Positions 30,860 to 40,063 of a stretch of 64,000 bases of DNA are shown here, in pieces (position 1 is the stretch's first letter; the number at the start of each line of letters is the position of its first letter). Below the pieces are notes generated by a model. The model was not told where the DNA came from and searched no databases. It worked only from the letters and a program-made list of their open reading frames with translations. Source of the DNA: Streptomyces tanashiensis. Lineage in GTDB: Bacteria; Actinomycetota; Actinomycetes; Streptomycetales; Streptomycetaceae. The position numbers were made by a program, and so were the translations under genes. The DNA is taken from contig NZ_BMRZ01000002.1 in the NCBI RefSeq assembly GCF_014648895.1, forward strand, positions 682,001 to 746,000. Reading direction: 5' to 3'.

Positions 30860-31107
30860 TCACCAACCTGTCGGCAGACCTGAGAGGAACGGGACGAGCC
30901 GGTCGGCGATGAGTCGGTCGTCATGGGCGGGTCGTCATGGGCGGAGCGGTGCCAGTCGCAGCCGGCGAAGTCCAGGCCCGAGTCGTCGAGGAACCAGGAG
31001 CGGACCCCGCTGCCGCCGGCGTCGTGGCGTGCCTCGACCACCTGCTGGACATGGCCGGCGTACCGGCCGGCGCCGACTGCCTCCGCACGATGCTGGACGC
31101 GGAGAGG
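30860..31107 (-). pseudogene. C-terminal remnant of an SGNH/CE2-type esterase with a 14-bp duplication
   Basis: Reading the reverse strand gives QQVVEARHDAGGSGVRSWFLDDSG and LDFAGCDWHRSAHDD, then after a frame change RLIADRLVPFLSGLPTGW-stop. GCDWH plus a following helix is the catalytic Asp-His end of SGNH carbohydrate esterases. The frame change is explained exactly by a 14-bp tandem duplication at 30916-30943: removing one copy restores one continuous frame. Only the last ~80 residues remain, and nothing resembling the SGNH nucleophile region is found upstream. A TCGAAGCGCTTCGA-type operator abuts the 5' edge. The family call is inferred from short motifs. Confidence 0.6.
30916..30943. repeat. 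14-bp perfect tandem duplication
   Basis: GGTCGTCATGGGCG occurs twice head to tail (30916-30929 and 30930-30943). Because 14 is not a multiple of three, it shifts the frame of the esterase remnant. It looks like a recent slippage event. Confidence 0.9.
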
Positions 31108-31241
31108 TTGAAGCGCTTCGATGGTGCTACTCGTCCCGACGTGCTGTCAATTGACCACCGGAGAAGGGTGACCAACGGTAGAGGCTCTTGTTTCGCACGA
31201 AACATGTCCGTTAACTTGCGTCTGGAAGTGAAGCGCTTCGA
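31108..31241. promoter_or_regulatory. Two TCGAAGCGCTTCGA-type operators before the GH42/GH43 remnants
   Basis: TTGAAGCGCTTCGA (31108-31121) and GTGAAGCGCTTCGA (31228-31241) share the AAGCGCTTCGA core with sites at 15139, 15258, 35232 and 35254. They lie upstream of the decayed beta-galactosidase and GH43 genes and between them and the esterase remnant. The intervening 31122-31400 sequence holds no gene I can support. Confidence 0.6.
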
Positions 31242-31400
31242 CAGCAGCCGGTCGCACCGACCGCCGCTGTCCGGCCTAAACGGCGGTGGCCCGGTGTCCG
31301 GAGCAGCTCGCCGAGGAACACACTCCCGCCTTCACCACCGTCTCCGGCCCCTACAGGTCCGTCAGAGCACCACGTGACTCTCCGTCCCCGAGGAACCGTC

Positions 31401-31610
31401 ATGACGACTCGCAGCATCACCGACCGCCTCGGCGGACCGGCTTTCGGCGGGGACGACAACCCGAGCAGTGGGATGAACCGGTCTGGAACGGCCGCAGCCG
31501 GCGGATCCCGCTCAACCACACCCCCGAGGCCGTGCCCTTGCCGGACCCCGACCACCGCGCCGGCCGCCGCCCTGCTCCGCATCACCCCCACGGACCCCGG
31601 CGCTCCCTGA
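31401..31610 (+). pseudogene. GH42 beta-galactosidase remnant (internal deletion)
   Basis: ATG 31401 with GAGGA upstream begins MTTRSITDRLGGPAFGGDDNP. After a missing base, it continues in the next frame as EQWDEPVW. FGGDYNPEQWxExxW is the conserved N-terminus of GH42 beta-galactosidases. Directly after this, at about 31487, comes [19 protein letters not shown], which resembles the last strands of the family's C-terminal domain. About 600 codons between them are absent. So this looks like an internal deletion plus a one-base deletion near 31463. The usual Tyr of GGDYNP is Asp. It keeps its ribosome site and lies between the operators and GH43. Confidence 0.65.
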
Positions 31611-37178: not shown

Positions 37179-38216
37179 TTCCTGTACACCCCCTGCTCGC
37201 CCAGGAGGTGGGCGAACTTGTTCGCACCCAGGACGAGGCACACTCCGATGAGTCCCTTGGCCAGGCCGACCGCGGCCGCGTAGCTGAAGTCGCCGTTCTG
37301 AATGCCCATGTTCCACACGTACGTGTCGAGGACCTCGCTGGCCCCCGCACCGACCGCGTGCCGCTGGAGCAGGAACTGCTCGAAGCCGACGCTCAGCGCG
37401 TCGCCCACCCTGAGGACAAGGAGCAGGGCGATCACCGGGCGCAGCGCGGGCAGCGTCACGTGCCACATGCGTCGCCGGCGCCCCGCACCGTCCATGGCGG
37501 CGGCCTCGTACAGATCGGTGCTGACGGAGGACAGGGCCGCGAGGAAGACGATGATCCCCCCAGCCGGCGTCCTTCCACACGGCCTGCGCGGTGGCCAGGT
37601 ACTTGAAGAGGTCCGCGTCGGTCATCAGGTCGAAGCCGCTCCACCCGTGCGCCTCCAGGGTCTGCGCGATGATGCCCGCGCCGCCGAGGATCTGCTGGAA
37701 GACGGTGACCACGAGGACCCAGGAGAAGAAGTGGGGCAGATACATGATCGCCTGCGCCACGGCACGGACCCGGGGCCGGATCACACTGTTGATGACCAGC
37801 GCGAGGGCGATGGGGACCGGGAAGAACAGCACCAGCTGGAGCGCGAAGAGGACGAGGGTGTTCTTCGTGGCGCTCCAGAACAACGGGTCGTCGAGCGTCC
37901 GGGAGAACTGCTCGAGGCCGACCCAGGGACTCTGGAAGATCGCCGCGATGCCGTTGTCGGAGGCGTACGGGTCGTAGTCCTGGAAGGCGATGACGTTGCC
38001 GAGCAGCGGGACGTAGTTGAAGAGGAGGAGCAGGGCGATGACGGGTGCGACCATCAGGATGAGGGCGCGGTCACGGCGCAGCCGGATCCGCAAGGGGACC
38101 TTGCCGGCCTTGCTCGTCCCACGCGGTGGCCGGGGCTTCGGCTCGGTGGCGGCGGCGACCACAGCCCTCGGCTCCTCGACGGTCCCGTCGGGCCGGCTCC
38201 CGGCCGTGAGCGACAT
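37175..38216 (-). pseudogene. Lpl/CUT1-type sugar ABC permease (LplB type) with a homopolymer frameshift
   Basis: ATG 38216 (overlapping the binding-protein stop, TGATG) starts a ~346-aa permease with about six membrane helices. The frame is broken at a run of six C on the plus strand (37556-37561). Five would give the expected DAGWG-IIVFLAALSSV, and translation then continues to YEAAAMDGAGRRRRMWHVTLPAL (EAA loop) and the end at 37175. Everything else is intact. A one-base gain in a G/C run can be a genuine slippage mutation or a sequencing error. The flanking genes carry larger, clearly real lesions. Confidence 0.8.
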
Positions 38217-39862
38217 CAGTTGCCGCTTCCGTTCTTGTCGAGGAGCTCCTGGTACCAGGCGCGCAGTTCGTCGCCGCCGGAGGACTTCCAGGTGGAGATG
38301 GCGGCCTGCACGTCGGACAGCTTCTTGTTGCCCCGCACGTAGTCGATCTCCAGCTGCTCGAACTGGCTCTCGAGGGTGGCGTAGCGGGCAGGCTCGACGA
38401 CGTTCATGCCGTAGAGGGACGTCTTCTTCATGAAGACCCCCATCCGCTGCTGCCACTCGACCTGCTTGCGGGCGATCTCGGGGAGGTCCGGGTGGGCGAG
38501 GTAGGGAGCCGGGGCGGCCACCATGACCCAGGCGTTGATCACCTCGGAGTTGCCCTGTTCGGTCTTGACCGGGACGCCGCCCTCGACCGTGTAGTGGGTG
38601 CCCTCGACGCCGTAGTCGACGAGCATGCGCTCCTTGGTGCCGTAGGGCGCTGCCGCGAAGTCGGCGGCGGCCAGCGCGTTCTCGACGGTCTCCTTCGAGG
38701 CGCCCTTCCGGATCATCGACCAGATGTTGGACGGCGAGGTCGCCCACAGCGTCGGGTCGCCGCCGTCGGCACCGAAGATGTCCATGGCCTCGATCCGGAA
38801 GTCCGGGTTGGCCTGCGCCTGTTCGGCGGCCTTGACGTACCAGGCGGACAGGTCGCTGTTGAAGACCAGGATCTGTCCGGCGGTGAAGCGCTGACCGGCG
38901 TCGCCGGAGAGCGCCTTGTCGTCGGGGTGGACCACGCCGGCGTCGAACAGCTTGCGGGTCCACTCCAGGGATTCGAGGTATTCGGGCCGCTCCTTCGTGT
39001 ACCTCAGCTTGCCGTCGTCGTCGATGTTCCACTCGGGAGCGTTGCCGAAGACGCTCCCCGCGAACCAGCTCATGTCACCGCAGGCCCACACCTTGGCCTT
39101 GGCACTGGTGGCGTCCTTGGCCCAGCTGAGGAACTCGTCGGGCGACTTGGGTACGGTGTAGCCCTTCTTGTCGAAGATGTCCTTGCGGTAGTAGGGCACG
39201 ATGAAGCTCGCGGGGGCGGCGGGCATCGGGATGCCGCGCAGCGCGCCGCCGAAGATGCCCATGCGCCAGGCATCGGACGGAATCGCGGCCAGGTTCGGGT
39301 ACTTCTTGACCTTGTCACCCGCCAGGTAGGGGCCGAGGTCCATGAACTTCGCGGTGACCGCGTTCGCGATCTTGCCGACCAGCTCCCAGCTCGGCACGAC
39401 CACCATGTCGGGTACGGAGCTGGAGGCGAGGACGGCGCCGAGTTTCTGGCCGTAGGTGGTGCCGTCCTGGTTCTGCCAGGTGACCTTGGTGCCCGCCGCC
39501 GCGTCGACCGCGGTGTAGTACGCGCATCCGGCCTTCGGCGGGGTGCCCCAGAACGGGGACATGATCTTGACGGGAGCGCCCGTGCCGAGCTTCTTCGGAA
39601 CCGACGTGGCCAGGGCGGCGAGATCGACCTTGCCGGTGTAGCCGTCTGCCGAACCGTTCTTCGACGGAAGGTCAGGCTTGGCGACCGTGCTGGCGACGTA
39701 CGTCGGGAGCAGCTTGTCGGCGGCCTTCCCCGACGTGGCGCCCTCTCGCGACTCGCCGTCCGAACCGCTGCAGGCGGTCAGCAGCGGCAATCCCCCGGCC
39801 ACCGCTGCGGTGGCGACCGCCGTGGAGGCGAGAAAGCTTCTCCGGCTCGGTCCGGAGGAGGC
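38216..39862 (-). pseudogene. Sugar ABC transporter solute-binding protein (LplA type), 5' end deleted
   Basis: A ~545-residue extracellular solute-binding protein. The visible N-terminus is [23 protein letters not shown] then LPLLTAC, a twin-arginine lipoprotein signal with lipobox. The mature part ([15 protein letters not shown]-like regions, [22 protein letters not shown]) is intact to the stop. But no start codon or ribosome site precedes SSGPSRR. Instead, the sequence passes at about 39862 straight into the opposite-strand tail of a GH1 gene. Upstream in-frame codons belong to that gene's complement. So the promoter, the start and a few codons are deleted. Confidence 0.8.
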
Positions 39863-40063
39863 GGCGCGGCCGGCGTGGACGTACGCGGCTATGACGTGTG
39901 GTCGCTGCTGGACAACTTCGAGTGGGCGCGCGGCTATGGACAGCGCTTCGGTCTCGTCCACGTCGACCACTGCACTCTGACCCGAACGCCCAAGGACAGC
40001 GACGACTGGTACCGGGGCCTGATCACCGCGCACCGAGCGCGGACGGAGGAATCCACCCGATGA
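39863..40063 (+). pseudogene. C-terminal remnant of a GH1 beta-glucosidase
   Basis: The frame [20 protein letters not shown], then [14 protein letters not shown] and [14 protein letters not shown], ending in a TGA at 40061, matches the last ~65 residues of GH1 (WSLLDNFEW is the aglycone-binding signature). The first ~85% of the gene, including both catalytic Glu residues, is missing. The deletion point adjoins the binding-protein gene. The aromatic residue usual at GY(Y/F)VWS is Asp. The TGA overlaps the GH31 start, and the remnant still carries the GGAGG used by GH31. Confidence 0.85.

Follow-up and report, generated by a model that had tools for sequence, protein, structure and literature searches.

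The decayed locus and its intact counterpart

We analysed a stretch of 64,000 nucleotides of Streptomyces tanashiensis DNA, called the window below, which at 30857-42342 holds the remains of a cluster of sugar-transport and glycoside hydrolase (GH) genes. The evidence makes it quite probable that a xyloglucan locus has decayed here piecemeal, and likely recently, and that only the gene of a predicted LacI-type repressor and the promoterless frame of a GH31 enzyme are still whole. The initial annotation had described a hemicellulose locus in decay within 9 kb (30860-40063), with eight named lesioned genes beside an intact repressor gene and an intact GH31 gene. All eight are present in the sequence, and the damage exceeds those named.

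At the left end lies a remnant of a CE2-type/lectin GDSL esterase (30863-31081, - strand), which comprises residues 455-537 of 537 and is shifted in frame by a 14-bp tandem duplication. On the + strand follow a GH42 remnant (31401-31555), in which residues 1-29 are joined to residues 617-639 and 1 bp is deleted at about 31462, and a C-terminal GH36 remnant (about 31551-31607; residues 691-711). The GH43 gene (31654-33157, +) has a 10-bp deletion at about 31870 and a 1-bp deletion at about 32025, and the gene of a GH5-CBM_X2-CBM46 endoglucanase (33291-35057, +) is interrupted by TGA at 33810-33812, where the related genome G342 has TGG (G-numbers denote genomes of relatives from the same genus, with G000 as the window genome). 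The GH5 fragment has 1,221 relatives; among the 120 listed, none has the 379-amino-acid (aa) form found in the window, and the closest of these 120, with a length of 588 aa, shares 93% identity. The adjoining LacI-family repressor gene (35285-36301, +) is open throughout and encodes 338 aa with matches to Pfam LacI and Peripla_BP_3, and is thus intact as first described. Downstream, on the - strand, are two pieces of a GH12 gene (36422-36539 and 36542-36565) and the genes of an ATP-binding cassette (ABC) transporter. Permease 2 (36566-37178) retains residues 1-213 of 308 and has a 1-bp deletion at about 37018; permease 1 (37178-38222) has an insertion of 1 bp within a G run near 37557, besides two in-frame length changes that are left out of the lesion count; and the sugar-binding lipoprotein (38216-39865) has lost its first four codons and its promoter region, the remainder being open, with GTG codons in frame only at 39961, 39970 and 40033. 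A C-terminal GH1 remnant (39867-40063, +; residues 394-457 of 457) leads into the gene of a GH31 alpha-xylosidase (40060-42342, +), whose frame of 760 aa is whole. The promoter region of the GH1-GH31 unit, however, has been lost, so that only the frame of the GH31 gene is intact and the gene is probably cut off from the promoter of its unit. The earlier description of this gene as intact therefore holds for the frame and fails for the promoter.

Comparison with the syntenic locus of related streptomycetes, as proposed in the initial annotation, yielded an ancestral set of 17 genes. In G342 (C1:557027-593325; 36,299 bp), the recognised genes are arranged as CE2-type esterase (-), GDSL/lectin esterase (+), GH42 (+), GH36 (+), GH43 (+), GH5 (+), lacI (+), GH12 (-), GH95 (-), a second GH42 (-), a BNR-type xyloglucanase (-), permease 2 (-), permease 1 (-), binding protein (-), GH3 (+), GH1 (+) and GH31 (+). 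The locus genes were sought with 18 references, and the G342 stretch may contain further genes outside those. In 16 of the 17 genes at least 0.98 of the reference is covered in one open frame, the first esterase reaching 0.78. G364 shares this gene order over the stretch covered (CE2 to GH3).

The gene families, GH5, GH12, GH95, GH42 and GH36 among them, were assigned by Pfam. For the transporter, Pfam recognised the binding protein (PF13416) and one permease (PF00528); permease 2 had no Pfam match at 1e-5. The BNR-type enzyme of the relatives' locus, which we take to be a GH74 member, aligns with solved xyloglucanases along some 700 residues (E about 1e-140). GH31 exceeds the NCBIfam alpha-xylosidase equivalog cut-off (1213.6 bits against 606) and also matches YicI chains. 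GH5, with its CBM_X2 and CBM46 modules, resembles solved endoglucanases, as does GH12, and some of these are described as specific for xyloglucan. The enzyme families thus point, on good grounds, to xyloglucan as the likely substrate, and the label of a hemicellulose locus can be narrowed to a likely xyloglucan locus. Enzymes predicted to cleave the xyloglucan backbone are present in the relatives' loci; in the window they are broken or gone.

The window copy retains 11,486 bp in the order and orientation of G342. Fifteen of the 17 recognised genes are lost or broken, ten being damaged and five being without a remnant found, and only the lacI and GH31 frames are open. No remnant at an identity of at least 58% was found in the window for the GDSL/lectin esterase, GH95, the second GH42, the GH74-like xyloglucanase or GH3. 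We counted 14 lesions: six deletions, the 10-bp deletion, the 14-bp tandem duplication, four 1-bp insertions or deletions and two stop codons. Thirteen are located at the locus itself and the fourteenth, a stop codon, interrupts an acetyl xylan esterase gene at 14023-15009, so that the decayed set, placed within 9 kb by the initial annotation, extends to a gene 16 kb away. In G342 coordinates, the six deletions removed about 6,563 bp (join at 31082-31084), 1,761 bp inside GH42 (31488/31489), 2,166 bp before the GH36 remnant (placed at 31550-31556), 399 bp between the two GH12 pieces (36539-36543), 7,065 bp truncating permease 2 (36565/36566) and 6,903 bp between the binding protein and GH1 (39864-39867). 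They sum to 24,857 bp, compared to the 24,813 bp by which the two loci differ in length. The six joins share 0-1 bp of exact homology, and their placement is uncertain by up to 6 bp because window and G342 differ by 5-12%. None of the small lesions occurs in any of the relatives aligned at each site (two to four per alignment).

We considered whether the locus was mis-joined or miscalled in the assembly, the organism itself having an intact copy. The genome is a 9.02-Mb draft in 58 contigs (100% complete, 0.18% contaminated), and three of the four 1-bp lesions lie in or beside short single-base runs, both of which would suit such an artefact. However, the six joins respect the ancestral order and orientation, and their 0-1 bp of homology offers an assembler no overlap, which makes a chimeric assembly, left as a way out by the initial annotation, unlikely. 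The 14-bp tandem duplication, the 10-bp deletion and the two stop codons are likewise atypical of calling errors, and no second copy of the locus is present in the genome, where a search with the 9.2-kb region yields nine short matches besides the region itself. Of the 97 permease-domain matches over the cut-off in the genome, 96 are part of a stop-free frame that is open for 235 aa or more and the remaining one is the 148-aa fragment in the window, and all 32 LacI-family matches lack an internal stop; genes too broken to match escape such controls, as permease 2 of the window did. Twenty open frames outside the locus were scanned as well (18 matched Pfam), which is a weak control as they were picked for being open. 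Taken together, we regard an assembly artefact as very unlikely. With an intact collinear copy in G342 and six deletions that explain 24.9 kb, the claim that the locus has really lost function is borne out for its coding content.

The repressor, its predicted operators and an outlying esterase

The LacI-type repressor occurs in 232 of the 392 genomes of the genus that were searched, and the window copy is free of lesions when compared with 102 distinct orthologues. It has a helix-turn-helix and a sugar-binding domain, and palindromic predicted operators are found at the promoters of the relatives. There, sites like TCGAAGCGCTTCGA, often paired at a distance of 90-170 bp, are located upstream of GH42, lacI and the binding protein/GH3 genes, and operator-like sites also precede GH1, GH3 or an esterase gene. 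In the window, a predicted operator pair is left at the GH42 promoter (31108-31121, matching at 13 of 14 positions, and 31228-31241, at 12 of 14), and a second pair at lacI, with TCGAAGCGCATCGA upstream (35144-35157) and TCGAAGCGCTTCAC at the start of the gene (35254-35267). The initial annotation held the operators to be intact. This is correct for the lacI pair, which equals that of G342, but each GH42 site has one base changed compared to G342, and five operator-like sites of G342 (binding-protein/GH3 and GH1 promoters) fall within the sixth deletion. GH31 is accordingly left without a recognised operator or a promoter of its unit. The altered core of the lacI operator was considered as a sign of decay and rejected, the G342 sequence being identical.

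The only perfect copy of TCGAAGCGCTTCGA in the genome (15139-15152) stands in front of the outlying esterase gene, together with a second operator-like site at a distance of 119 bp (15258-15271, core AAGCGCTT). The gene (14023-15009, -) encodes an AXE1-type acetyl xylan esterase (Pfam AXE1, PF05448) and has TAG at codon 17 (14959-14961), where the orthologue in G046 has GAG (tblastn, one stop). In G046, this orthologue adjoins GH1 and GH31 and is also located behind a perfect operator site. The frame after the stop (14955-14023) begins with TTG and is open for 310 aa, and a restart at this codon would retain positions 19-317 of the 321 positions of the AXE1 profile.

Across the genome, sites with at most two mismatches number 81, compared to 72 in a reversed control, and are thus not enriched. 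Eight sites outside the window were inspected (all five with one mismatch and three with two), and seven of them lie inside open frames. The eighth, at C32:16130-16143, is intergenic, matches at 13 of 14 positions and precedes by about 10 bp a frame of 77 aa that matches no Pfam family; it is possibly one further target of LacI. The repressor is predicted to lack any wholly intact known target and still to bind its own promoter and the leftover promoters of GH42 and the esterase.

Age of the decay and survival of the repressor

We compared the substitutions private to the window with those of its relatives. In the five broken genes that could be aligned, 43 private changes alter an amino acid and 49 are silent, compared to 212 and 249 in the relatives (Fisher p = 0.91); an earlier run without masking gave 57:66 against 240:276 (p = 1.0). 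Private changes of the broken genes thus give no sign of relaxed selection relative to those of the relatives. The amino-acid-changing share is 0.47, with an upper limit of 0.57, whereas a purely neutral history would give 0.62-0.75. Since the private substitutions show no excess of amino-acid changes over those of the relatives, the decay is likely recent, and most of the branch probably passed under constraint.

The same comparison gave 4:9 against 21:58 for LacI (p = 0.74) and 6:17 against 45:114 for GH31 (p = 1.0). A first LacI run that included the distant G059 had given 3:3 for the window, when five close relatives had 0-1 amino-acid changes each. Relaxed constraint on LacI, suggested by that run, was dropped: without G059 the counts are 4:6 against 14:52 (p = 0.23), and other relatives gave the p = 0.74 stated above. 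LacI deviates at eight positions that are at least 90% conserved, as do 7 of the 102 orthologues at eight positions or more, so that the data argue neither for constraint on this gene nor for its decay.

One could imagine that the transporter died first, in a single big deletion, and that GH31, LacI and perhaps the esterase have been kept as a useful, reduced module under LacI control. This would account for the whole frames of GH31 and LacI and agrees with the esterase, which is open for 310 aa after the stop, has a nearly whole AXE1 domain and is preceded by the best operator pair of the genome. Yet GH31 has neither an upstream operator nor a known promoter, and the esterase is stopped at codon 17. 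The substitutions in LacI and GH31 show no extra constraint compared to the relatives of the broken genes, and if the eight small lesions were spread evenly, LacI would escape all of them by chance with a probability of 0.48, and LacI and GH31 both with 0.07. We therefore consider a retained module decidedly unlikely. It is also conceivable that the repressor is the last to die, selection keeping LacI while its regulon rots because the leftover promoters would otherwise transcribe wreckage. If true, the window would be a snapshot of ordered decay, in which transporter and enzymes have been lost and a silencer still sits over promoters that drive nothing whole. To this idea we attach a low probability. 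The survival of LacI is no evidence of selection, as the broken genes likewise show no relaxed constraint yet, and it may be due to chance.

Our preferred reading thus remains a recent, piecemeal decay of a xyloglucan locus. In this scenario, uptake or a key enzyme would have failed first, which would have ended selection on the remaining pathway, and deletions through near-blunt, Ku-type end joining, together with small mutations, would then have accumulated. The import and trimming of xyloglucan oligosaccharides via this locus would thereby be lost. The genome encodes Ku in a 354-aa frame; its presence fits the 0-1 bp joins without proving this route.

Several points weigh against this reading. 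Half of the eight small lesions, the four 1-bp insertions or deletions, could be base-calling errors. The lesion of the esterase may be leaky and its loss incomplete, with a restart at TTG 14955 rescuing the gene. The substitution test bounds the age only weakly, as up to about 38-68% of the private changes could postdate inactivation, and the esterase gene at 14023 has a ratio of 0.34 in the window compared to 0.13 and 0.20 in relatives, from three sequences that leave the branch unassignable. Moreover, some xyloglucan use may persist via GH9, GH6 and the GH95 paralogues encoded outside the locus, and the finding that the genome has no match to the BNR xyloglucanase (GH74) comes from a search without a positive control.

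Remaining capacity, relatives and comparison with known systems

Two GH95 paralogues are intact in the genome, and GH9 and GH6 are encoded in the window. The genome contains no intact GH12 and no true GH42, three partial matches to the latter reaching at most 31 bits. Growth on xyloglucan is predicted to be lost. A published study describes two Streptomyces isolates that did not grow on xyloglucan, one of which lacks GH9 and GH12 according to the authors (PMC11475409). The parallel is a loose one, because the present genome has GH9.

Other genes for plant polymers in the window look whole. Between 3491 and 19561, they comprise two LacI-type regulators (3491-4567 and 10279-11442), ABC sugar transporter genes, GH3 (7759-10149), GH6 (12655-13935) and GH9 with CBM2 (17399-19561). 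The counterparts of the stretches 146-3265 and 44400-45992 are neighbours in G342, at 604.4-607.7 kb and 608.4-610.0 kb respectively. Since about 41 kb, the decayed locus included, separates the two stretches in the window, a block has changed its place between these genomes. An open frame at 51048-51785 (-) has HTH_38 and MarR-like matches and may be part of either a transposase or a regulator.

Piecemeal loss is also seen in relatives. Six of the ten examined have at least one short single-gene remnant at the locus, the first esterase of G342 (0.78) being excluded: GH36, the BNR enzyme and the second GH42 in G100, GH36 and the BNR enzyme in G101, GH1 in G102, a 6% GH95 match in G046, the permeases, the BNR enzyme and GH3 in G103, and the BNR enzyme in G236. 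Stops in GH95 that had been flagged in many loci were judged to be a reference-end effect after the scoring rule was changed, six loci not being rescored. All ten relatives have an open transporter trio and LacI, G103 (S. cyaneochromogenes) at a second place. Piecemeal loss is thus common at this locus, whereas among the genomes compared only the window has lost the transporter. In S. cyaneochromogenes, a partial second transporter (C1:10157.6-10159.0 kb; permease 1 residues 229-352, permease 2 residues 1-67) adjoins operators, the intact trio being located at 7.29 Mb. In SKN60 (G102; C6:276249-276359), GH5 and GH42 are absent and the lacI promoter follows about 110 bp after GH43.

With 17 genes and an intact collinear relative, every deletion end, frameshift and stop could be assigned, which makes this locus unusually legible. 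It offers a concrete test of two notions, one being that lost sugar uptake frees a whole local pathway for decay, the other that the repressor of such a pathway may persist longer than the genes it controls. In genomes of this type, moreover, an annotated 'GH43', 'GH5', 'ABC permease' or 'GH31' gene need not imply use of the sugar.

Pseudogene clusters and degraded operons are well known in bacteria, in which the genes of one pathway are inactivated together by deletions, frameshifts and stops. No description of the present locus or its repressor was found in the open-access literature searched, and we regard the case as a well-resolved but ordinary instance of gene decay, a further example of this known phenomenon. 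Compared to the loci of G342 and G364, the window shares the genes, their order and orientation and the lacI operators, with LacI 91% identical to the common reference, but the relatives have one open frame per gene where the window copy has 14 lesions. As in other bacterial pseudogene clusters, several genes of one pathway were inactivated by deletions, frameshifts and stops. Unlike in those, this occurred in a free-living, gene-rich soil bacterium with long frames elsewhere, the regulator in the window is whole, and each lesion can be read from a comparison with the intact copy of a near relative.

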